Below are positions 14,275 through 64,000 of a stretch of DNA of 64,000 nucleotides, one piece after another. Position 1 is the first letter of the stretch. Each line of letters starts with the position of its first letter. Source of the DNA: Luminiphilus sp. (GTDB lineage Bacteria > Pseudomonadota > Gammaproteobacteria > Pseudomonadales > Halieaceae); assembly GCA_029242325.1 (NCBI GenBank), contig JAQWUD010000010.1:79379-143378 (forward strand), read 5' to 3'. The translations under genes were made by a program, and so were the position numbers. The notes below the pieces were generated by a model. That model was given only the letters and a program-made list of their open reading frames with translations. It searched no databases and was not told the origin of the DNA.

Positions 14275-14991
14275 TTGCACCGGCTATTTATCAGCGACCT
14301 GCATCTGAGCGATGACAGCACCGCGGTAGAAGCGGCGCTGTATTCACTCATCGAAAGAGAGTCGTCTATCGACAGCCTCATTATTTTGGGGGATTTGTTC
14401 GAGGCCTGGGTGGGCGACGACGACGATGCGCCCCTGGCTATTCGGATAAAAGCGCTACTACGGTCTGTCGCGGCAAGAGGCACTGAGCTGTTCCTGGCCA
14501 CTGGAAACCGAGACTTCATGTTGGGCAAGGCATTTGCAGACGAGGTCGGCGCTAACCTGCTGGACGATGAGACGGTGTTGGATGTCTGCGGGGAGTCCTG
14601 CCTGCTCATGCACGGTGACTCACTGTGCACGGATGACACCACTTACCAGCAATTTCGCGAGATGGTCCGCGCACCCAGCTGGCAGGCTGAAATGATGTCA
14701 CGAGATTTGGACGCGCGTCGCGAGCTTGCAAGGCAGCTGCGGGAGATGAGTATCGATGCCGCGAGCAACAAAGCCGAAGACATCATGGATGTCAATCCGG
14801 AAGCGGTTATCGCGGCCATGCAGCGTAGCGGGGTTAAACGCATGATCCACGGGCACACCCATCGACCTGCCCGCCATGTCTCGCCCTCAGGGGAGGAAAG
14901 AATTGTACTGGGAGACTGGACAGCTCAACACGGCTGGCTGCTCAGGGAGCAAGGCGGCTCTCTGTCGCTTGAACAGTTCACGATTGGCTAG
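14275..14991 (+). CDS. lpxH: UDP-2,3-diacylglucosamine pyrophosphohydrolase
   Basis: Makes lipid X in lipid A synthesis. The calcineurin-like metallophosphoesterase motifs are FISDLHLSD, ILGDLFEAWVGDDD, ATGNRDFMLGKAF, LMHGDSLCTDD and IHGHTHRPARH. The protein has 238 residues, typical of LpxH. The start is TTG 14275 (TTG-CAC-CGG...), because the first metal motif begins seven codons later and no ATG lies upstream; the SD is weak, which suggests coupling to ppiB. The end overlaps the convergent miaE by 4 bases. Confidence 0.94.
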   Translation: MHRLFISDLHLSDDSTAVEAALYSLIERESSIDSLIILGDLFEAWVGDDDDAPLAIRIKALLRSVAARGTELFLATGNRDFMLGKAFADEVGANLLDDETVLDVCGESCLLMHGDSLCTDDTTYQQFREMVRAPSWQAEMMSRDLDARRELARQLREMSIDAASNKAEDIMDVNPEAVIAAMQRSGVKRMIHGHTHRPARHVSPSGEERIVLGDWTAQHGWLLREQGGSLSLEQFTIG

Positions 14992-15617
14992 GCCGCCACG
15001 GCAAGAGGGCCACTGTGAAACCGGAAGCAAGTATCGACGCGCTCGATCAGGTCGACCTCTAGTGCTCGAAAATGCGCGAGGCGATCTTCCAATTCACTGT
15101 TGTCGCAATGCCTCTCTGCCAGGGAAAGGTAATCCATGAAGTGCCGAGCCTCACTCTTGAGTAACGAGTGGTAGAAGTCGCCAAGCTGAGTATCCAGCCT
15201 CGAATACAATTGCGCGAAGCGTTCACAGGAACGTGCCTCAATGAATGCACCGATAATCAGCGTATCCACCAGACGACCCGGTTCTTTGCGCCGTGCCCCG
15301 CTGTGCAGACCCTGAGCGTATCGAGAGGCACCAAGCGGACCGTACTCCACCCCACGCTCATGCATGATCTTCAGCACTTGCTCAAAATGTCGGAGCTCCT
15401 CGCGTGCTAAGCGTGACATTTTGTTGAGCAATATTGTGTCGGCTGTATAGCGATGTATTAGACTCAACGCCGTCGCCGCGGCCTTCTTCTCACAGTTGGC
15501 ATGATCAATCAGTAACAGCGCCTCCCGCTCAGGGCACGCCGCCACATCTACCCAGGCTATCGGAGTCTCGCAGGGTAAAAAGCCCCGAATCTCCTCCAGT
15601 TGTTGCCGCATGGTCAT
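14988..15617 (-). CDS. miaE: tRNA-(ms2io6A)-hydroxylase
   Basis: Diiron monooxygenase hydroxylating the isopentenyl group of ms2i6A37 in tRNAs. The 209-residue helical protein shows iron ligands in LIDHANCEKKAA, LAREELRHFEQVL, IGAFIEARSCERF and LLKSEARHFMDYL, matching MiaE. Its ATG (15617) overlaps the TGA of the DUF1289 gene as ATGA, so the two are translationally coupled. The substrate implies MiaA and MiaB elsewhere in the genome. Confidence 0.93.
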   Translation of the reverse strand: MTMRQQLEEIRGFLPCETPIAWVDVAACPEREALLLIDHANCEKKAAATALSLIHRYTADTILLNKMSRLAREELRHFEQVLKIMHERGVEYGPLGASRYAQGLHSGARRKEPGRLVDTLIIGAFIEARSCERFAQLYSRLDTQLGDFYHSLLKSEARHFMDYLSLAERHCDNSELEDRLAHFRALEVDLIERVDTCFRFHSGPLAVAA

Positions 15618-16123
15618 GAGCCGGCCTCTCCGCGGGCGTCATGAGAAAACAAATCTGATGTGGCAATGTAACGATCGTAATGGGCGGTAGATAACACCCA
15701 GAACTCCTCATCAATCTCATCGCGTAACGCGACCATTGAGCGGTCGCGAAATCCCGGCACCACCTCAAAACCAAACTGTTCTGCGTCCGTAATCTGACTC
15801 GCGCCGGCCTTGAGCATAGCGAATACATGGCAATGAGCATCATGATGAGGCTGGAACCGAATCTTCTGTACCTCTAACTGCCAATTCAGCAAAGCGTGAT
15901 CAATAATCCGAAAGCGGTTAGCGACGCAAATGGCCAAAAACTTTGCCAAGCGCTGGTCGATAACGCTTTTTTCTTGATGCGAGTACCCGTTCCAATCAAT
16001 CACCTCATGCGCAAACCGCTTGCAGCCCCGGCACACCGAATCACCGATGCCAGTGGAGCAGACGCCAATACAGGGCGTTTTGATTGGGGTGAGATAATAC
16101 ACTGAGCCTCCCGTTTCAGACAT
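15614..16123 (-). CDS. DUF1289 cysteine-motif protein
   Basis: The N-terminal 50 residues carry the DUF1289 signature TPCIGVCSTGIGDSVCRGCKR, four cysteines likely to bind metal, followed by EVIDWNGYSHQEKSVIDQRL. The remaining 110 residues are an unrelated-looking extension, so it is longer than the typical 60-90-residue DUF1289 protein. I chose ATG 16123 (169 residues); the frame extends to 16183, but that part is glycine-rich and lacks an SD. It is coupled to miaE by ATGA overlap, hinting at a link to tRNA modification or iron chemistry, which is inference only. Confidence 0.75.
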   Translation of the reverse strand: MSETGGSVYYLTPIKTPCIGVCSTGIGDSVCRGCKRFAHEVIDWNGYSHQEKSVIDQRLAKFLAICVANRFRIIDHALLNWQLEVQKIRFQPHHDAHCHVFAMLKAGASQITDAEQFGFEVVPGFRDRSMVALRDEIDEEFWVLSTAHYDRYIATSDLFSHDARGEAGS

Positions 16124-52593: not shown

Positions 52594-53393
52594 ATGCTCG
52601 GAAATAACGAACTCATTTTGGGAATTGACCTTGGCGGGACCAGTTTGTCTTATCGGCTTGAAGCGCCTGAGAAATTGTTAGCAAGTGGCTCTATGGCCAC
52701 ATCAGACAATTTTTTCAAACAACTTGCCAATATTTATGAAAGTTTAGTGCGGGAATTTGGCCTCATTAACGCTGTGTCGCTAGGGGTACCTGGACCTGTT
52801 AAAGACAATGTCATGGGTCCAAGTTTCCCTTTGGGTACCGAAGAAGAATGCACCTTCGACAGGTGCTTCAAAGGTGCATCGCACTTAATCGTTAAGAATG
52901 ATCTTTTTATGGCTTTAACAGCCGAAATGACGGAAGGTCATGGCGTAGTGTATAAAAATCTTGTTCTAGTTTCTATCAGTACAGGGATTGGTACCGCCGT
53001 CGCGGTTGATAGAAAGCCTCTAGACATACGGGGCGAAATGGGTCACCAACGAATTGGCGTCATTGATACTGAGGTTGCCAAATGCATTAATCATTCCAAT
53101 TGCTGGGCCAGCATGTGTTCTGGCAAGGCAATATCAAAAAAAGAGGGGTCGCTTGACTTCGATCTCATCAAATCTGCGAACCTGAGGCTTTTATAAATAT
53201 TGTTGCAGCCTATGACCCAGAAGCCATTGTCGTCATGGGCGGAGTAGGTGTTCGACTTTTCAATCAGGTAATCCCCATGCAAAAAGATCTCGCAACGATG
53301 GCACTGCTTGGCGCTGCACCTGTAGTACTCAAGAGTGACTTAGGCGAGGGCATTGGGGCGATTGGTGCCGTCAAGCTTGCTCGGTCAAGATGA
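52594..53393 (+). pseudogene. ROK-family kinase with a single-base frameshift
   Basis: The first frame (52594-53196, 200 residues) encodes the N-terminal two thirds of a ROK sugar kinase: LILGIDLGGTSLSYRL, AVSLGVPGPVKDN, KNDLFMALTAE and LVSISTGIGTAVAV. Just before the stop, near 53178, the reading shifts: a second frame continues FINIVAAYDPEAIVVMGGVG, then LGEGIGAIGAVKLAR, ending at TGA 53393. Restoring one missing base gives about 266 residues, near family size. The zinc motif is altered (CINHSNCW instead of CxCGxxGC). It is a probable pseudogene, unless the frameshift is programmed or a sequencing error. The composition is lower GC than its neighbours. Confidence 0.8.
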
Positions 53394-55552: not shown

Positions 55553-55779
55553 CTTTTCCGACCTTCTGAAATCTCAGACCTGAACGGATCTTATCAGGGG
55601 CGGGGGCCGCTGTGAGAAACTAGGAGTCCCTTAACTTAGCAGGTATGGAACCAGCCGCGCCAAAAATGAGACTGGCCAAGAGTCCCACGAGGGCTCCATT
55701 TTCGAGAGTCACCATCTGTGCTTGGATTACAGCCCTGTCGCGAGCAGAATCGACCAGAGATTTGAAGAGGCAAGAACTG

Positions 55780-56172
55780 ATGGCGATTAAAGGGTCGTGT
55801 GAGTGCGGAGAGGTCACTTTCTCAGTAGATGGGCCTTTGCGCCCCACGTTTGCTTGCCATTGCACTCAGTGCCGTAAAACCAGTGGGCATTACTGGGCGG
55901 CAACGGCAGTTCCTAGTACTCATCTGAAGCTAATTAAGGACAGCGGTCTTAAGTGGTATCGATCAAGCGAGCGGGCGCAGCGCGGGTTCTGTGTAGGCTG
56001 TGGTTCGTCACTGTTTTACCAAGAAGATGGTGGCGACTCAACGTCGATTGGTGCTGGAACCCTTGATGATTTGTCGAGCAGTGCGACAAAAATTGTGAAG
56101 CACATTTTTATGGCGGACAAGGGCGCTTATTACGATGTGGCAGATGAGTTGCCTCAGTTGCAACGCTGGTAA
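55780..56172 (+). CDS. GFA-family (CENP-V/GFA domain) zinc protein
   Basis: Resembles glutathione-dependent formaldehyde-activating enzyme (GFA). The 130 residues have zinc-binding cysteine pairs: GSCECGEVTF, ACHCTQCRKTSG and GFCVGCGSSLFYQ. ATG 55780 with GAGG upstream is preferred; the longer frame to 55645 is non-family. Most such short GFA proteins have no proven activity, and the glutathione link is by family only. A GST gene lies 340 bases downstream on the same strand. Confidence 0.86.
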   Translation: MAIKGSCECGEVTFSVDGPLRPTFACHCTQCRKTSGHYWAATAVPSTHLKLIKDSGLKWYRSSERAQRGFCVGCGSSLFYQEDGGDSTSIGAGTLDDLSSSATKIVKHIFMADKGAYYDVADELPQLQRW

Positions 56173-56199: not shown

Positions 56200-56430
56200 A
56201 TGAGATCACTAATTGCCATTGCCGCACTGGTGGCATCAGCCTCCGTGAATGCGGGCGAACTCGATGGCAAGTGGATTAGATGCGAACCGTACTCTGATAC
56301 GTATTGGTTTGCAGACGGTGAGGCGATAGAGTGGTCCCTCCTTCACATACCGCACATCGCGGCGCGAGCATTGCAAGCGAAACGCAAGAGAGCAGATCCC
56401 GCCGCCCTCTCTCGGTTCGCGACCGGCTAA
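56200..56430 (+). CDS. Small secreted protein, possibly truncated
   Basis: ATG 56200 (ATG 56197 also possible) follows a strong GGAGG. The first 20 residues (MRSLIAIAALVASASVNA) are a clear Sec signal peptide, followed by GELDGKWIRCEPYSDTYWFADGE, which reads like a small beta-sheet periplasmic protein. The last 30 residues turn basic and lose this character, so a frameshift near 56330 or a truncated gene is possible. No family recognised. Confidence 0.5.
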   Translation: MRSLIAIAALVASASVNAGELDGKWIRCEPYSDTYWFADGEAIEWSLLHIPHIAARALQAKRKRADPAALSRFATG

Positions 56431-56507: not shown

Positions 56508-57194
56508 ATGTCTCAGCTACTGACCCTTCACCACCTCGAATACTCACAATCTTTTCGCGTTCTCTGGATGCTGGAAGAACTGGGCACGCCCTACGAGCTC
56601 ATCGTGTACGAACGAGATGCTAAAACGAGGGCAGCGCCCGACGAATACAAAGCTATCTCTCCATTGGGCACTGCTCCCGTTCTGACCGAAGGAGAAATGG
56701 CGCTCGCCGAGAGCAGTGCGATCATGGAGCACATTCTCGACATTACGCCGAATCACACGCTAAGACCCGAGCCGGGCGCTCCCGATCGGATTCGCTACCT
56801 ATTTTGGTGGCACGCCGCTCAGGGGTCGATGATGCCGTTACAGCTCATGATTACCGTGCTGAATTTGTCTCAGAAACAACTGCCATTCTTCATGAAACCT
56901 TTTATAAAGCTCTATGTGGCGGGTTTAACCCGTCTGTTTATGGAGCCCCGCCTGAATCGGCTGATGGAGCAAGCTGAGGTCGACCTTGAAACAGCACCTT
57001 GGTTTGGCGGGGAACGCCTCTCGGTGGCTGATTTCCTCATTGCCTATAATATGATTGTCGGTGCCGAACGGGGAATGATTAACGAGAGGCAACATCCGAA
57101 TTGCATGAAATGGATCGCGAGAATGAAGGCGCTACCCAGTTTTGCCCGAGCCACAGAAAAAGATGGGCGAGCCAGCATGGCTCTCAACTACTAA
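56508..57194 (+). CDS. Glutathione S-transferase
   Basis: Cytosolic GST of 228 residues. The thioredoxin-like N-terminal domain has LHHLEYSQSFRVLWMLEELG with the catalytic Ser/Tyr region, the cis-proline TAPVL and the ESSAIMEHIL motif that binds the gamma-glutamyl group. The C-terminal helical domain has WFGGERLSVADFLIAYNMI. The start is ATG 56508; the upstream open frame is not homologous. It may conjugate electrophiles produced by the neighbouring oxygenases, which is inference. Confidence 0.9.
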   Translation: MSQLLTLHHLEYSQSFRVLWMLEELGTPYELIVYERDAKTRAAPDEYKAISPLGTAPVLTEGEMALAESSAIMEHILDITPNHTLRPEPGAPDRIRYLFWWHAAQGSMMPLQLMITVLNLSQKQLPFFMKPFIKLYVAGLTRLFMEPRLNRLMEQAEVDLETAPWFGGERLSVADFLIAYNMIVGAERGMINERQHPNCMKWIARMKALPSFARATEKDGRASMALNY

Positions 57195-57241: not shown

Positions 57242-58600
57242 TTACGCCATTTCGTTGAGATAACGCGAAAGCGTCTGGTGGAAGTGCCTGATCCTGAGTT
57301 CCTGATAATCTGCGGTCAACGCTTTTTGCGTCTTGGAGGCCATTAATCCCTTCTGAACCTCTGGTAAGTTATTCGCATCTTGATCGAATAGCGCACCCAG
57401 CAGGCCCAGCGCCTCAGCCTCTGCATACTTCTGGTCATAATCTAGGCGAATGGTCTGCGCGTCGGCCGGCCTCGGCTGGGCCTGAGGGAAACCATCGAGC
57501 AGGTAAATATCCATGATGCAACCATCCGGGTTCATCCCGTCGGGACGATACCGATACGTGATCTGGCTCTGAAATCCACCCCACGGGGCAAAATTAGGGA
57601 AGACCAGGTACAGAATTGAATCCATGGTTTCCGCGTCGGTAACCAATGAGAGAGCATCTGCGTCCATAAAGTCGGCAAACTGCGCCCTACGAACTGCCCC
57701 AATTGCTTGCCGGGAAGTCATTTCGTCCGCGCTCAACCCAGTCAACGCTTGCGCCTGCTCGAACCCTCCTGGCCCGGTCATCGCCTCGACAGATTCCTGC
57801 ACACTATAGCGATCCGCCTGCCCCGGGTTCGGAATCCCTTGAGCGGTGATCGTCCGACTGAGGTGATCACCAAAAACGTCGTATTGCGAGTTATCTCCCC
57901 CCGTAAAAGAGAGTATCTGAGGGTGGGTTTGAATCGCATGGTAGGACTCTATAAAGGCCTCCATCGCTATCTTCCAGTTGCACCGGATCTTCTTTTCAAC
58001 ATGCAGAGAAACATAGCGATCCTCAGGCTTCCATCGTTCAAAGTGCTCCGCGAGAATGGGCGCATACTCCTCAAACGAGGGCGCTTCGAGATCCATGTTG
58101 ATCAACACCCAACCACCCCAGGTCGTGACTTGCACTTCTGGTAGCTTGAGCTCTGATAGCTGTTCGGCATCAAACTCCCAGTCGCAATAAGCTTCCTTAA
58201 AGCTGCCATCCAGATGCCAGCAGAAACCGTGATAGGGGCAACGCAATTCACGGCTTGTGCCTCGCCCGGATTTTAGCGCTCGGCCACGATGCAAACAGGA
58301 ATTGTGGAAACCCTTGAGGTCACCGGATTCTGTGCGAACTAATAGAATGGAATATCGCGCAACGTCATACACACAATAATCGCCTGCTTTCTGCAGAGCG
58401 GCTTCTCGGCAAACCATCTGCCAGACTTTGGGCCACAGGCGCTCTACTTCTCGCTCGAAGACAGTGCGGTCGGTCCACACATCTGTTGCGATCACATCGT
58501 TGGCTATGTTGGGCTTGGTATCGAGCCTCAGCGCCTCGGGCACCGACACAGCCTCTTGGTCTAACAATTCTTGATAGCTGAGGAACACGGGCTTGTTCAT
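57242..58600 (-). CDS. Rieske-type aromatic ring-hydroxylating oxygenase, alpha subunit
   Basis: Terminal oxygenase of 452 residues with the Rieske [2Fe-2S] motif (Cys102 and His104 in NSCLHRGRAL, Cys121 and His124 in RCPYHGFCW) and the mononuclear iron ligands in ESYHAIQTHPQ. It is the alpha3-only type: no beta subunit, ferredoxin or reductase gene is adjacent. ATG 58600 follows GGAGTGAG. It is the last gene of the run ATP-grasp-P450-Rieske, 44 bases from the P450 stop. Substrate unknown; aromatic or alkylamine compounds are common. Confidence 0.9.
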   Translation of the reverse strand: MNKPVFLSYQELLDQEAVSVPEALRLDTKPNIANDVIATDVWTDRTVFEREVERLWPKVWQMVCREAALQKAGDYCVYDVARYSILLVRTESGDLKGFHNSCLHRGRALKSGRGTSRELRCPYHGFCWHLDGSFKEAYCDWEFDAEQLSELKLPEVQVTTWGGWVLINMDLEAPSFEEYAPILAEHFERWKPEDRYVSLHVEKKIRCNWKIAMEAFIESYHAIQTHPQILSFTGGDNSQYDVFGDHLSRTITAQGIPNPGQADRYSVQESVEAMTGPGGFEQAQALTGLSADEMTSRQAIGAVRRAQFADFMDADALSLVTDAETMDSILYLVFPNFAPWGGFQSQITYRYRPDGMNPDGCIMDIYLLDGFPQAQPRPADAQTIRLDYDQKYAEAEALGLLGALFDQDANNLPEVQKGLMASKTQKALTADYQELRIRHFHQTLSRYLNEMA

Positions 58601-58644
58601 AACTCACTCCACTCCGGCGTCAGGCAACGAAACACACGTTGACG

Positions 58645-59886
58645 CTAGGCAATTTTATCAAAAGAAATGTAGAGATCCTTGAGACCACGAAGCAATACAT
58701 TGGGATTGTGCTGTAATGTATTCTTACCCTCGACCAATCCCCAGTTGTCTGCGCGCGCAAGCAGACTTGTAAGCGCAATCTGCATCTCGGTCCGCGCTAA
58801 CTGAGCACCCAGACAAAAGTGCGTCCCCTGCCCAAAGGCTAGGTGATTGTTGGCATTATCGCGGTCTACGCGCATCTCGTCCCCGCAGGAAAAAACAGAT
58901 TCGTCTCGGTTGCCTGCAGCGAATCGCACCATGAGGAAAGCCCCTTCTGGAATGGCGACGCCGCCCACCTCAGTATCCTCTGTTGCTCTACGCCACATGC
59001 CTGTTGTAGGCGTTTCAAGACGAAGAATTTCTTCGACAGCTCCGGGAATCAAATCCGGGTTCGCGCGCAGTTTGGCTTGCTCAGCAGGATTCTGAATGAG
59101 CAACACAACTCCCCCCGCAATACCGGCGGTCGACGTTTCATTGCCGGCTACTAGAATCTGCTGAATCATGCCCAACGCCTCGGATTTAGTCAGGAGGCGT
59201 CCTTCGTCGATCGTGTTGTTCGCCAAATCAGAAATAATATTGTCTTCTGGATGATTTCTCATGCGGTCGATGAGATCGGCAAAATAATGCTGGAACTCAA
59301 CGATATCTCTCGCATCCTGAATTTGCTGATTCTCGTCCGCAAGGCGCCCGAGACGACTCGCAGACGCATCGGACCATTTTTTAATCAGCGTCAGCTCTGA
59401 ACGAGGCACCCCGAGCTGATCGGCAATGACATAAACCGGTAATGGGACACACAGCCGGTTCATCAGGTCGACTTCCTTGTCATCGATCCATTGGTCAATC
59501 AACTCGTTGGTCATGGATTGAATGTAATCTCGCATCCCTTCGATACGCTTGTTCGAAAAGACCTTGTTCACTAGGTTGCGGTACACGCGATGCCGGGGAG
59601 GGTCCTGCGTAAGAAGCGTTTCAACCATTTCATAACCCTGCTCGTAGATCGCACCAACCGCTTGATTGGACGCACCGGCATTGAGCAGAGCGCTGAAACT
59701 ACTGGAAAAACGCGCCGGATCCCGGATGATGTCGCGAATATCGGTGTAGCGCGTTACCACAAACACATTCGTTCCTGGCATTTGCCAAACGGGGGCCTCA
59801 TCCTGCAACTGTCGATAGATATGAAACGGGCACTCCTGCACCTCGGCGCTAAAAAAATCCAGTTTGGCTAAGTCAACGCGGCTCAC
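58645..59886 (-). CDS. Cytochrome P450
   Basis: Bacterial class I P450, 413 residues. It contains the I-helix oxygen-binding AGNETSTAG, the ExxR motif EEILR, and the heme ligand in FGQGTHFCLGAQLAR (Cys358 in this numbering). The open frame reaches ATG 59928, but GTG 59886 has a near-perfect AAAGGAGG SD at 8 bases and overlaps the ATP-grasp TGA as GTGA, so the two genes are translationally coupled. Ferredoxin partners must be encoded elsewhere. CYP family and substrate unknown. Confidence 0.92.
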   Translation of the reverse strand: MSRVDLAKLDFFSAEVQECPFHIYRQLQDEAPVWQMPGTNVFVVTRYTDIRDIIRDPARFSSSFSALLNAGASNQAVGAIYEQGYEMVETLLTQDPPRHRVYRNLVNKVFSNKRIEGMRDYIQSMTNELIDQWIDDKEVDLMNRLCVPLPVYVIADQLGVPRSELTLIKKWSDASASRLGRLADENQQIQDARDIVEFQHYFADLIDRMRNHPEDNIISDLANNTIDEGRLLTKSEALGMIQQILVAGNETSTAGIAGGVVLLIQNPAEQAKLRANPDLIPGAVEEILRLETPTTGMWRRATEDTEVGGVAIPEGAFLMVRFAAGNRDESVFSCGDEMRVDRDNANNHLAFGQGTHFCLGAQLARTEMQIALTSLLARADNWGLVEGKNTLQHNPNVLLRGLKDLYISFDKIA

Positions 59887-61181
59887 GAAAGGGCCTCCTT
59901 TAGAATCAAAGTCGCTGTGGGAAAGCAATGCTCGGGCAAACTCAGGTCACGGGCTTTCACGAATTCAGCAAAATCTCCGGTAACAACCTGCCAGGCAAAA
60001 AAGCATTCAGCACGCTCAACCTCGAGTGCAAACGGAGTAAAACCCATTGGCAGATACCCAAATGCTGAATCCGTCGCTGGGAAAAGATTGTCCGACTGAA
60101 AGGAACGTAGCGCGTCTCGGTCTGCACATGGAATCATATCGAAAAAAGCAACAGCGGGCTGGCTCACCCGGAGTCGCCGGAGAAATTCTGCAGGGAATAG
60201 CCCGCCGGTCCACCGGGCGTTGATTTCAGTGACTATCACTTCCTCGCCGGAGACAAAATAATCAATACCACAGTTCACGCCGTCCTCAGCCACGTGACCC
60301 TGCGCGCGTGCATATCGGCCTACTGTATCGAGAACCTTAGCGTGCGCCTCTGAAACACCGAGCTCGGGCGCTATGTAGTTGCCGACCCACTTACCTCCGG
60401 CAAACAGAATCTTTCTCACATTACTGACTTCGATACTGTCGGGCTTAATCGTAAGGTCAACCGTCATTTCCTGCCAGGTGTGTGTATCCAGCTTTTCCTG
60501 CAATAGAATCAGGCTGGCGTCGTCATACTCTGTGATATAGCTCAAGCATTCATCGACCGAATTGAGTGAGAACACATTTCTAGAGCCCGCGAGCCCGAGC
60601 AACTTCAACATCACTCCATCGGGATACGCAGCGAAGAAGGGATCGGCTGCGCCCGCTCGTATATCTTGTTTACGGAAGGTCTCTGTATGGGGTACGGGAA
60701 TGCCATAATCGGGGGCATGATCAGCAAAATGTACTTTTGAATTGACGTTCCGACTGACCGTGAGCGCATCGATACTGAGATGAAGCGGAAAGTTACTGCC
60801 GCTGACCATGTATAAATTGATGAGGTCGACGACTGGCGTGTTGGCAGCCACACTCTCGTAATACTCGTTCAGCGGGTGGTATTGCCAATGCTCTGCTGGC
60901 ACACCTGCCAGCCCCATACGCCGAAACAGATCGCCATAATGCCGCAGCATGGTGTTCCACTCGGGCTCGGCGAAGGGTGCAGACAGTGCGATGTGATCGG
61001 TGGACTTGCCCAAGCCTGTCAGAGCAACCTGGAGCGCGCAGGTCAGGATTTGATTTTCCTGATGGTCATCCCGCTGCTTGGGAGTCAAGGTCGTCAGGTC
61101 ATGATGTAACGAGCAATCATCACCAGCCATGGCATAAAGAACGGGGGAGGCTTGCTCGGGCACAAAACTACCAACCTTCAA
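59883..61181 (-). CDS. ATP-grasp-like carboxylate-amine ligase of unknown product
   Basis: The 432-residue protein is divergent. ATP-grasp features are visible: a lysine and glycine-rich loop VMLKLLGLAGSRNV (Lys193), the nucleotide hinge LLQEKL near 227, and the Mg2+ ligands in VTEINARWTGG (Glu319, Asn321, Arg323). ATP-grasp enzymes join a carboxylate to an amine or thiol through an acylphosphate. The start is TTG 61181, with AGGAG at 8 bases. The N-terminal 140 residues lack a recognised domain. Coupling to the P450 suggests biosynthesis rather than housekeeping. Confidence 0.75.
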   Translation of the reverse strand: MKVGSFVPEQASPVLYAMAGDDCSLHHDLTTLTPKQRDDHQENQILTCALQVALTGLGKSTDHIALSAPFAEPEWNTMLRHYGDLFRRMGLAGVPAEHWQYHPLNEYYESVAANTPVVDLINLYMVSGSNFPLHLSIDALTVSRNVNSKVHFADHAPDYGIPVPHTETFRKQDIRAGAADPFFAAYPDGVMLKLLGLAGSRNVFSLNSVDECLSYITEYDDASLILLQEKLDTHTWQEMTVDLTIKPDSIEVSNVRKILFAGGKWVGNYIAPELGVSEAHAKVLDTVGRYARAQGHVAEDGVNCGIDYFVSGEEVIVTEINARWTGGLFPAEFLRRLRVSQPAVAFFDMIPCADRDALRSFQSDNLFPATDSAFGYLPMGFTPFALEVERAECFFAWQVVTGDFAEFVKARDLSLPEHCFPTATLILKEALS

Positions 61182-61280: not shown

Positions 61281-61904
61281 TTACCGCTCAGCAAACAGAT
61301 CTGCAGTCTGCCGTGTGTCACTCCGATCGCGGGGCAGCGGCTTGATCAGGCCCGGCTCGTCTATTCTGGCATCGCCAACTGTTTTTGCCACGGGATGACA
61401 AGTCATCGTGAGGCTCTGCGACCTCTTAGGGGCCGCCCCCTGAGTCAACCATGGTTCTAAATCCACCTCGTCTAGCCATACCGGCTGACGACAATGAATA
61501 TGCCGCAAGGAATCGGCCGCCGGCTCAGTCACTATCACGCAACCGTTTTCTGGTTCATATACTCCGGCGAAATAGAGCAGCCTCCCTCCTCCATGGTGAT
61601 ACCAAGGTTGCTTGCCGCCGGGGCTGTGCTGCCATTCGAACCATCCATCGGCGACAAACGCACACCGCTGCAGAGAGCGAAAACTCACCTTGTGGAGTAA
61701 CGTTTCCGAACGGGCGTTGCTCACCATCCGGCGATTGCCTTGCACGGGGATTTTCAGGCCCCAGCGCTGCATACTGTGATACCGCCCAGGCACTATCGTC
61801 ATCACCTGTGATTGGGGCGCGATATTGAATCGATCAGCAGTTTGAAGTCCCAAGGCACTCAAATCTGGTCGATTGGAGACAGAGAGTGTGTAACGTCCGC
61901 AGAT
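61281..61904 (-). CDS. SRAP (HMCES/YedK-type) peptidase with ATC in the start position
   Basis: SRAP proteins crosslink abasic sites in single-stranded DNA through Cys2, exposed by removal of the initiator Met. Read from 61904 the product is x-CGRYTLS..., with RFNIAPQ, the Asn of VSNARSET (about 63), the Glu of DGWFEW (about 90) and His of RHIHCRQPV (about 137), so all catalytic residues are intact. The codon before Cys is ATC, and the in-frame TAA (61908-61910, the FAD gene's stop) is two codons upstream, so no ATG, GTG or TTG can include Cys2. GAGGG lies 8 bases upstream. TTG 61862 would delete the active site. Confidence 0.85.
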   Translation of the reverse strand: MCGRYTLSVSNRPDLSALGLQTADRFNIAPQSQVMTIVPGRYHSMQRWGLKIPVQGNRRMVSNARSETLLHKVSFRSLQRCAFVADGWFEWQHSPGGKQPWYHHGGGRLLYFAGVYEPENGCVIVTEPAADSLRHIHCRQPVWLDEVDLEPWLTQGAAPKRSQSLTMTCHPVAKTVGDARIDEPGLIKPLPRDRSDTRQTADLFAER

Positions 61905-61907
61905 GGA

Positions 61908-63092
61908 TTAGCCCTCAAGCCCCGCTGCCTTGAGGGCCATGGCAGTGCTGATCGCCGGATTCTCAGCCGCCGAGCGTAACTGCTCCACCAACTTTGGGAA
62001 TCCGTTTCCCGAGAGGGTATCCATTTGCAACCCAGCGGCATGATTCTCAGCGAGCCTCTGTGTCACCTCTTTGTCGAATTGCTGTTCGAACGTCTGGAGC
62101 AATGGCAGTAACTCCGCCTCAGCAAAGCCGGCCCGCAGACCTTTTAAAAGTGATGCCAAGCGATCCGCTACTCTGAAACAGGTATTCATTCCCATGCTGC
62201 GCGCAGGATGCATGGCGTGCCTCGCATCACCAATCAGCACAGCCGCGCCGTCACCACGATAGGACTCTGCCTGTTGAGATACTGGCGGGTAGACGGCGCC
62301 GAATGCGAGGTGCTCAAATTCCAGATTCGGACACCATTGCTGCAATTGATTATGCAGAACTGATTCTGGCTGGTTGCGCCACATAGACAGCTCATCACTA
62401 GCGATCGGAAAACCGATTTTCGTTCCGCCGCCGGTTCGCGGAATCATGGAAACCATTCGCTCATGCAACAGATGCACGTCGAGCGTCCTCATTTCGGGGG
62501 TATCCATCAGACGGCCATATAGCACCGCTATCGGATACTGATACCGATGCCGATCAATCCGGACACCCAATTTCGATCGCACAGGCGAGGCAGTGCCATC
62601 CGCGCCCACCAATAGCGTACACCTGAGCGTTCCCGATTCTCCTGCGCCGGCCCAATGGATCTGCCAGCCACCGCGCACACGATCCAGAGACCAATCGGAT
62701 ATGCCACTGATATCAATGGCGCCCTGCTCAACGGCATGGGTCAGCAGCACGTCACCAATCTGCTCATGATTCAAATAAAGAAATGCCGGTGCGCAGTCAG
62801 CTCGCTCCGGCACCGGAATCTTGACCAACAGCCGTCCCTCGGTATCAAACCACCGGGTACCGTGTCGTTGCTCCGCCCCGCTCAATACAAGTGTATTCAA
62901 GACCCCCCAACGCTCCAGTATCGGCTGCACTGCAGGCTGAATGTGATCTCCTCTGGCTGAATCGAGCCCTCCTTGTCGTCGATCCAATAACGCCACACTC
63001 AGACCGCTACCTGCCAAGGCAGCGGCCAGAGCGGATCCCGCAATGCCTGATCCGACAATACCCACGTCAACACACTGCGCCTCGCCTGGCAT
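61908..63092 (-). CDS. FAD-dependent monooxygenase (UbiH/PHBH-like)
   Basis: Group A flavoprotein hydroxylase of 394 residues from ATG 63092 (GGAG at 6 bases; the TTG at 63122 lacks support). Motifs are the dinucleotide-binding VGIVGSGIAGSALAAAL, DG-type LLVGADGTASPVRSKLG, and the FAD ribityl motif IGDARHAMHPARSMGMN. Ubiquinone hydroxylases are relatives, but the context with an SRAP gene and oxygenases differs from the ubi genes. Substrate unknown; an NADPH- or NADH-dependent aromatic or polyketide-like hydroxylation is likely. Confidence 0.88.
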   Translation of the reverse strand: MPGEAQCVDVGIVGSGIAGSALAAALAGSGLSVALLDRRQGGLDSARGDHIQPAVQPILERWGVLNTLVLSGAEQRHGTRWFDTEGRLLVKIPVPERADCAPAFLYLNHEQIGDVLLTHAVEQGAIDISGISDWSLDRVRGGWQIHWAGAGESGTLRCTLLVGADGTASPVRSKLGVRIDRHRYQYPIAVLYGRLMDTPEMRTLDVHLLHERMVSMIPRTGGGTKIGFPIASDELSMWRNQPESVLHNQLQQWCPNLEFEHLAFGAVYPPVSQQAESYRGDGAAVLIGDARHAMHPARSMGMNTCFRVADRLASLLKGLRAGFAEAELLPLLQTFEQQFDKEVTQRLAENHAAGLQMDTLSGNGFPKLVEQLRSAAENPAISTAMALKAAGLEG

Positions 63093-63279
63093 CGCCCACT
63101 CCAACTCTGGATCTGCATCCAACGCGCCTACTTTAACATCGCAACCTCGCGCATGACGCGACTCAGCCCGGTAACAGCCTCTTACCCCAAAAAGCAGGTG
63201 TTTGTTGGCACCCGTGTGCAGATTCCATGGACACCCCCGCTAGTGTAATGTCGCGCCTATCACGAGAGGAATCTATCCC

Positions 63280-64000
63280 ATGCCCATGCGCGCCAACAGT
63301 CACACAAAATGGAGCGTTCTGAGTGGTCTTTTTCTGGTCTACATGGCGTCAAACGGCATCACCCTTCACACTTTGCCCATGCTCTACCCGGAACTGATGG
63401 AAGAGTTTGGCTGGAGAGAAAGCGAGGTTACCCTTCCCGCCACCGTTTTTTTCGTCGTCGGCGCGATCACCTCGCCACCCGCAGGCTGGCTCCTCGACCG
63501 CTATTCATCCAGAGTAATAATCGCTCTGGGTAGCTTGCTTCTCAGCCTTGGTCTCATGGGTTACTCGACAACCCACACGTTGTGGCAGCTGGTTGCTATT
63601 TATGCAGTACTGGGCATCGCTCTCTCGCTGTGCGGCCTTGTCTCCAATATGGTCATGCTTACCAGTTGGTTCTCGGCGGGACGTGGCCGCGCGACCGGCA
63701 TACTGCTGATGGCCTCAAGCCTCGGGGGCGCTATTTTCCCACTGATGATCGGCATTGGCATGGAGGTATTGGGTTGGCGGCACACCATTCTGCTGGCGGG
63801 GATTGGCGTAGCTGTTACCATGCTCATGAGCTCATGGCTTTTGCTCAGGGATGGCCGTTCGCTCCGGGCGGGGCGAGTATCGACCTCGCCGACGGAGGCA
63901 CTTCAGCAGAACACGCCCTCTAACGGGCTATTTTCTGTAATGCGAGAGCGTCGTTTCCTCGCCATCATCTTTGTGACCGGCAGTCTCTGGTTCATCATCA
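63280..64000 (+). CDS. MFS transporter (partial, runs off window)
   Basis: From ATG 63280 (GAGAGGA upstream) the frame is open to the window end (240 codons). Hydrophobic helices alternate with typical MFS loops: LSGLFLVYMASNGITLHTL, then the loop 2-3 motif AGWLLDRYSSR, YAVLGIALSLCG, SAGRGRATGILLM and a seventh helix at the edge. It is divergent from the FAD monooxygenase gene, 187 bases away. It may export or import a product of that gene group. Resembles monocarboxylate-like (OFA/MCT) transporters. Confidence 0.85.
   Translation, partial: MPMRANSHTKWSVLSGLFLVYMASNGITLHTLPMLYPELMEEFGWRESEVTLPATVFFVVGAITSPPAGWLLDRYSSRVIIALGSLLLSLGLMGYSTTHTLWQLVAIYAVLGIALSLCGLVSNMVMLTSWFSAGRGRATGILLMASSLGGAIFPLMIGIGMEVLGWRHTILLAGIGVAVTMLMSSWLLLRDGRSLRAGRVSTSPTEALQQNTPSNGLFSVMRERRFLAIIFVTGSLWFII

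Follow-up and report, generated by a model that had tools for sequence, protein, structure and literature searches.

The stretch of DNA analysed here (the window) comprises 64,000 nucleotides of a Luminiphilus sp. genome of the family Halieaceae (contig JAQWUD010000010.1, positions 79,379 to 143,378 of the forward strand). Close to its end lie three neighbouring genes, for a divergent ATP-grasp-like ligase, a cytochrome P450 (P450) and a Rieske non-haem iron oxygenase, and we found that this trio is conserved as one unit in part of the family. In the direction of reading the three genes are:

59883..61181, minus strand: divergent ATP-grasp-like ligase, 432 amino acids, TTG start (open reading frame and profile comparison)
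58645..59886, minus strand: cytochrome P450, 413 amino acids, GTG start (PF00067, 3.9e-26)
57242..58600, minus strand: Rieske non-haem iron oxygenase, 452 amino acids, ATG start (PF00355, 7.9e-14; PF00848, 1.8e-19)

The TGA stop codon of the ligase gene and the GTG start codon of the P450 gene share the letters GTGA, giving an overlap of four bases, and the ribosome site of the P450 gene (AAGGAGG) is located within the last codons of the ligase gene. This GTG was used as the P450 start, the start at 59928 being merely that of the longest frame. The Rieske gene follows the P450 gene after a gap of 44 bases (58601-58644), and 99 bases precede the ligase gene in the interval upstream of it. An earlier note on this DNA had described three minus-strand genes with this overlap and this gap, all of which were reconfirmed, and its proposal of one coupled operon is borne out by the GTGA overlap and by a gene order that is kept across relatives.

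Based on a search with a ligase profile in 140 genomes of the family, covering 28 genera, the ligase was matched in 20 genomes from two genera. One of these, G033 (G, C and L numbers are our handles for genomes, contigs and loci), holds a scar only, and the trio counts rest on the 19 genomes with a ligase, some of whose ligase genes are cut by a contig end or frameshifted. A P450 gene, whole or contig-cut, came directly after the ligase gene in all 19 genomes, and a Rieske gene, whole or contig-cut, came after the P450 gene in 17 of the 17 testable genomes, G1135 and G1077 being excluded because their contigs end inside the P450 gene. The ligase-P450 junction was read in 18 genomes, G032 not among them, and consisted of a 4-base overlap in 15 and of a 1-base overlap in three (L022, L112 and L114). 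The gaps between the P450 and Rieske genes measured 3-44 bases, and all spacings inside the cassette ranged from -4 to 44 bases. The trio is also present in a named record, Halieaceae bacterium UBA3479, of which the contig is the reverse complement of G1118:C123 from the same genus. The earlier note had named conservation in several genera as support for a system; the trio occurs in two genera, and the family search, with its second genus and other gene contexts, rules out a single-genus artefact.

No trio ligase was detected beyond the family, the phylum search and the order search each returning the window's own genome only (1 of 398 and 1 of 224 genomes, respectively). The class search (369 genomes) gave two matches, namely that of the window's genome itself and a distant one at 22% identity; the class, phylum and order sets are overlapping samples and some contain family members. 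The ligase had no match in plasmid and phage collections at E 0.01 and none in PHROGs, and a scan of viral contigs for relatives to add to a structure model likewise gave none. Relatives of the P450 (46% identity) and of the Rieske protein (40%) were detected in Nostoc sp. HK-01, on two separate plasmids. Two genomes had unusual copies. For G032 we considered two degenerate copies and rejected them: contig C15 could be aligned to contig C23 along 1,834 bases (97% identity, 17 gaps), for which reason G032 was counted as one genome, and its stops and frameshifts look like assembly errors in one locus. In G033 (L027:2591-3226) ligase residues 1-50 abut Rieske residues 285-448 and the P450 is absent; the junction is either a deletion scar or an assembly chimera.

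In the main lineage the trio forms part of a larger block with the order SelD-SelU-GST-Rieske-P450-ligase-(SRAP)-FAD-MFS. The following members of this block surround the trio in the window:

61908..63122, minus strand: FAD-dependent monooxygenase (PF01494), upstream of the ligase gene, a lineage-specific partner
61281..61862, minus strand: SRAP-family gene (SOS-response-associated peptidase), between the FAD monooxygenase and ligase genes, optional
56508..57194, plus strand: glutathione S-transferase (GST; Pfam), convergent with the Rieske gene
63280..64000, plus strand: major facilitator superfamily (MFS) transporter (PF07690, 6.9e-42), divergent from the FAD monooxygenase gene

The GST start was taken from orthologues of 228 amino acids, the longest frame starting at 56331, and the MFS gene extends beyond the window end (its copy in L017 spans 14659-15906). 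The FAD gene lies ahead of the ligase gene, directly or with only the SRAP gene between them, in 14 of the 16 determinable genomes, and it had no plasmid match at 1e-15. Since the SRAP gene is present in only seven of these 14 intervals (missing in L018, L024, L025, L026, L108, L109 and L111), we regard it as optional. The MFS gene adjoins the cassette in the main lineage. Among the 27 same-genus genomes that do not have a full ligase, the FAD gene was found in one, G033, in pieces on two other contigs.

The trio was also found in other contexts, namely in G1127 (L113, same genus) and in G1076 (L114, second genus), with identities of 61-63% for the ligase, 67-68% for the P450 and 66% for the Rieske protein. 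No match to the FAD monooxygenase, SRAP, GST or SelD/SelU was detected within the stretches examined, that of L114 starting inside the ligase gene so that the upstream side is not covered. The neighbours were GNAT, a PLD-like protein and a peptidase in L113, and a luciferase-like monooxygenase and a short-chain dehydrogenase/reductase (SDR) in L114. In G1077 (L112) the region upstream of the ligase gene holds an amidohydrolase gene, a limonene-epoxide-hydrolase-like gene and, 42 bases from the ligase gene, an MFS gene other than that of the main lineage. Sixteen other SelD-SelU loci of the same genus (15 ligase-free genomes and G033, with several contigs ending soon after SelU) gave no match to the GST, FAD, ligase or Rieske genes in the stretches examined, and none of their P450 matches exceeded 29% identity. 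Because L113 and L114 keep the trio among other neighbours, we take the ligase, P450 and Rieske genes as the core; the family search thus reduced the unit from the six genes of the block first proposed to these three. The FAD monooxygenase, the MFS transporter and the GST accompany the trio in one lineage.

Additionally, we determined the ratio of non-synonymous to synonymous change (dN/dS) with our own Nei-Gojobori-type script. Synonymous change was mostly saturated, and the values are given for two unsaturated pairs, L024-L025 and L019-L023, in this order. They were 0.070 and 0.070 for the ligase, 0.045 and 0.031 for the P450, and 0.025 and 0.012 for the Rieske gene, compared to 0.093 and 0.117 for the FAD monooxygenase and 0.069 and 0.086 for the neighbouring SelD. 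Across the block, identity to the window was 79-91% for the P450 and Rieske proteins, 62-73% for the ligase and 62-69% for SelD. The cassette is under purifying selection, and these ratios and identities indicate that the P450 and Rieske genes are constrained more tightly than SelD and the ligase gene about equally.

The ligase itself gave no Pfam match at E up to 1 and no significant match to solved structures, the best single-query match being 8ynd at a non-significant E of 0.66. Ten members of the ligase family searched against Pfam gave weak, unrelated matches only. In NCBIfam, PRK02186 was weakly matched by five of the ten members of the ligase alignment (best 2e-4), and the window ligase reached 0.018 over model positions 107-284 of 890, far under the curated cut-off; we take PRK02186 to be an argininosuccinate lyase that carries an ATP-grasp part at its N-terminus. 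As the direct Pfam search was empty, the ATP-grasp assignment is an indirect one, made by profile comparison and by kept residues. Using hhalign, the window ligase family aligned to another ATP-grasp family, here called L028-type (L028, L035-L046) after its member L028, a distant homologue of the ligase, with a probability of 94% and an E of 8.4e-8 (1.6e-7 with a wider ligase alignment); the aligned region comprises residues 25-343 at about 21-23% identity. The best Pfam match of the L028-type family was 1.1e-6, with ATP-grasp_3 in five and Dala_Dala_lig_C in six of 11 members. At an E of 0.001, a search of 350 genomes of the class recovered the family in 20; in 11 of these, counting the genome from which the query came, identity was at least 39%. 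The weak matches of the ligase point partly towards carbamoyl-phosphate-synthase-like proteins, and so does the profile of this related family.

Residues K193, D307, E319, N321 and R323 were invariant in all ten alignment rows, including L112, L113 and L114, and are the putative ATP-binding lysine and metal-binding residues, with roles assigned from the alignment and general knowledge. Judged by its profile, the ligase is homologous to an ATP-grasp family and can be described as divergent and ATP-grasp-like. This homology, together with the kept putative catalytic residues, sustains the ATP-grasp call of the earlier note. An end-to-end alignment of the ligase with a housekeeping ATP-grasp enzyme was to count as refutation of that note's reading of the three genes; the Pfam, NCBIfam and structure searches yielded no such match. 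Its view of the N-terminal 140 residues as a domain of no known kind had to be given up, as from residue 25 onwards they align with the N-terminal region of the L028-type family and most likely form a pre-ATP-grasp domain. An AlphaFold model of the ligase built from two sequences had a confidence (pLDDT) of 39.8 and a predicted template-modelling score (pTM) of 0.29, which is too poor for use.

The L028-type family has a feature of its own, since its gene adjoins an asparaginase-2/isoaspartyl-peptidase-type gene in nine of 12 loci, and no P450, Rieske or FAD match was obtained in the 12, two of them spanning just 3-4 kb. The two genes are possibly a make-and-break pair for an isopeptide. We found no openly licensed PubMed Central (PMC) paper combining ATP-grasp, isoaspartyl and dipeptide. 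As a separate observation, such gammaproteobacterial ATP-grasp and isoaspartyl-peptidase loci are located at L028:12801-14916 and in L076, L037 and L077-L082, with one frame between the two genes in L078.

Judging by their sequences, both oxygenases belong to their families with intact metal-site motifs. The P450 has the heme motif FGQGTHFCLG, the I-helix motif AGNETS and EILR, of which the heme and I-helix motifs are also present in L113 and L114. The Rieske protein has the cluster site CLH...CPYH and the iron site FIESYHAIQTHP with both histidines present, the third, carboxylate ligand of the iron being left unassigned. In another family of the order (L100 and L101) a related P450-Rieske pair was found beside an RPE65-type carotenoid oxygenase. 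As in the window, the two genes are adjacent and co-directional, with identities of 46-48% for the Rieske and 47-49% for the P450 protein; unlike in the window, the order is RPE65-Rieske-P450 and no match to the window ligase was present in the stretches examined. An SDR gene is located near the pair in L100, and AMP-binding and acyl-CoA genes near that in L101. These clusters of RPE65-type oxygenase, Rieske and P450 genes span L100:6176-10322 and L101:9056-13151.

The Rieske tree united L100 and L101 with the trio at a support of 99/98, with a warning of long branches elsewhere in the tree. The P450 tree, in which long branches were flagged and the placement of the trio among outside relatives was not settled, was not used. 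In another genus of the family (L095-L098), P450 relatives at 51-55% identity lie near TonB receptor, RPE65-type oxygenase and acyl-CoA dehydrogenase genes, named by Pfam in L095 and matched by similarity to L095 in L096-L098. The window's own genome also holds a P450 and a Rieske protein, each at 40% identity, together in a CoA-type cluster. From these comparisons the P450-Rieske pair seems to predate the trio, and we infer that it is a module for the oxidation of hydrophobic compounds to which a ligase was added.

Taken together, we read the trio as a three-gene oxidise-and-ligate cassette acting on one small molecule, a reading to which we give slightly less than an even chance. In such a cassette a hydrophobic carboxylic acid would be oxidised by the P450 and the Rieske oxygenase, through hydroxylation, desaturation or epoxidation. 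The ligase would use ATP to convert the carboxylate of this acid into an acyl phosphate and would form an amide with an amine or an amino acid. In the one lineage, the flavin monooxygenase might contribute a further oxidation, the MFS protein might move the product and the GST might handle reactive by-products. Electrons for the oxygenases would probably be supplied from elsewhere in the genome, because the neighbours scanned with Pfam included no recognisable ferredoxin or reductase. The oxidations are proposed from family membership, the amide from homology and gene context, and the remaining steps by inference; amide chemistry is fitting because the homologous ATP-grasp family adjoins an isoaspartyl-peptidase-type gene. 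More specifically, and with clearly more reserve, we suggest that the ligase could represent an undescribed ATP-grasp subfamily which, with the P450 and Rieske enzymes, would provide a minimal route, free of nonribosomal peptide synthetases (NRPS), to an unknown class of marine metabolites, amide conjugates of an oxidised isoprenoid- or lipid-like acid, the ligase having been added to an older P450-Rieske module. Several points weigh against an oxidise-and-ligate cassette. Neither Pfam nor the solved structures offer a significant match to the ligase, and its AlphaFold model cannot be used. G033 retains the FAD gene while its trio is a scar, and the nearest P450 and Rieske relatives outside the trio are mostly located in catabolic-looking clusters. 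A compact cluster with no NRPS, polyketide synthase (PKS) or regulator would arguably also suit a short catabolic step.

Catabolism is the main rival because of this context of the oxygenase relatives. The oxygenases would then open a terpenoid, sterol or aromatic compound, the ATP-grasp enzyme would activate or conjugate the resulting acid, and the MFS protein would be an importer. Close relatives of both oxygenases have acyl-CoA dehydrogenase, enoyl-CoA hydratase, thiolase, AMP-binding, SDR, TonB-receptor and RPE65-type genes in their vicinity, the pair recurs in L100 and L101, which the Rieske tree joins to the trio, and the amidohydrolase and limonene-epoxide-hydrolase-like genes upstream in L112 would fit as well. 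However, the Pfam scan of the window genes between 52594 and 63122 and of the MFS gene revealed no such CoA-pathway gene, the AMP-binding genes of the L101 and L033 clusters could carry out the activation there, and the nearest family of the ligase adjoins an amide hydrolase gene, so that we consider a catabolic cassette somewhat unlikely. ATP-grasp families also include CoA ligases, carboxylases and carbamoyl-phosphate synthases, and the ligase might instead deliver a thioester, an ester or a carbamoyl-type phosphate intermediate to the oxygenases. The partly carbamoyl-phosphate-synthase-like character of its weak matches and of the related family's profile speaks for such a product, whereas the pairing of that family with an isoaspartyl-peptidase-type gene speaks for an amide and leaves this alternative improbable.

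A pathway for a ribosomally synthesised and post-translationally modified peptide (RiPP), in which the ATP-grasp enzyme would cross-link a small precursor peptide and the oxygenases would modify it, has a precedent in the lactam and lactone links that ATP-grasp ligases make in graspetides (PMC8939145). The cassette has no room for a precursor gene, given the ligase/P450 overlap and the 3-44 bases between the P450 and Rieske genes, and the ligase gene is preceded by an interval of 99 bases in the window and of 42 bases in L112, with no search aimed at short precursor genes made; we regard a RiPP pathway as very improbable. Least credible to us are three independent genes held together only through vertical inheritance of a chromosome segment. 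The main-lineage order from SelD to MFS is indeed kept as a block, but L113 and L114 keep the order of the trio with no FAD, SRAP, GST or SelD/SelU gene in the stretch examined, and the 16 other same-genus SelD-SelU loci gave no match to the GST, FAD, ligase or Rieske genes in the stretches examined. Independence of the genes is largely contradicted by these loci.

Compared to known systems, an oxidise-and-ligate cassette would come close to TabS, DdaF and the fungal Cp1B, stand-alone ATP-grasp amide ligases of NRPS-independent pathways described in part of PMC12568646. In these small pathways a single ATP-grasp enzyme phosphorylates a carboxylate and condenses it with an amine, and for Cp1B no identity to other characterised ATP-grasp enzymes could be detected before its structure became available (excerpts of PMC12568646). 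The excerpts mention no P450-Rieske pair, and these enzymes are set beside the window ligase by description only. The oxygenase-cupin operons are alike in that a predicted operon holds an ATP-grasp peptide ligase and a Rieske 2Fe-2S protein; they differ in being centred on an oxygenase-cupin gene, with the Rieske protein serving electron transport and no P450 named in the excerpts of PMC2922099, a comparison again made by description only. This operon type was the closest to the trio, which we did not find described in the openly licensed PMC literature.

Encoded on the thiomarinol plasmid pTML1 is a Rieske protein that shares 31% identity with the window Rieske protein over nearly its full length and that we take, from general knowledge and gene context, to be TmlW. 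This links the window protein to the mupirocin and thiomarinol enzymes MupW and TmlW; a difference is that neither a PKS nor an epoxide hydrolase was present among the scanned window neighbours. MupW turns an unactivated C-C single bond into an epoxide and TmlW works alike, according to a part of PMC8827043. The limonene-epoxide-hydrolase-like protein of L112 was considered as an equivalent of MupZ, which its sequence does not support: it is unlike the product of the gene beside the pTML1 Rieske gene (E 0.043), and its own gene lies upstream of the ligase gene.

Halieaceae are described as abundant and cosmopolitan in coastal seawater, and isolates of the family were reported to have two to seven antiSMASH clusters per genome, in a main text that does not contain the words P450 or Rieske (PMC10100682). 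Profile-based pathway searches may overlook the present cassette, because the ligase has no Pfam, NCBIfam or PHROGs match above cut-off and no significant structure match. As far as searched, the trio is an undescribed, compact ATP-grasp-based cluster with an unclassified ligase subfamily. With about 4 kb, the cassette, conserved in part of a marine family, is easy to express whole. Its product, once found, would show the role of a stand-alone ATP-grasp ligase with a P450-Rieske pair and would give the unclassified ATP-grasp subfamily a function.

Two further frames of the window were recorded on the side. A ROK-family frame at 52594-53196 (200 amino acids) covers positions 2-187 of the 294 of its Pfam model, approximately the first two thirds, and may be truncated. 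The GFA-family gene at 55645-56172 is 91% identical over 136 amino acids to its counterpart in L025, compared to 63-64% for SelD of the same loci, and is possibly a recent transfer.

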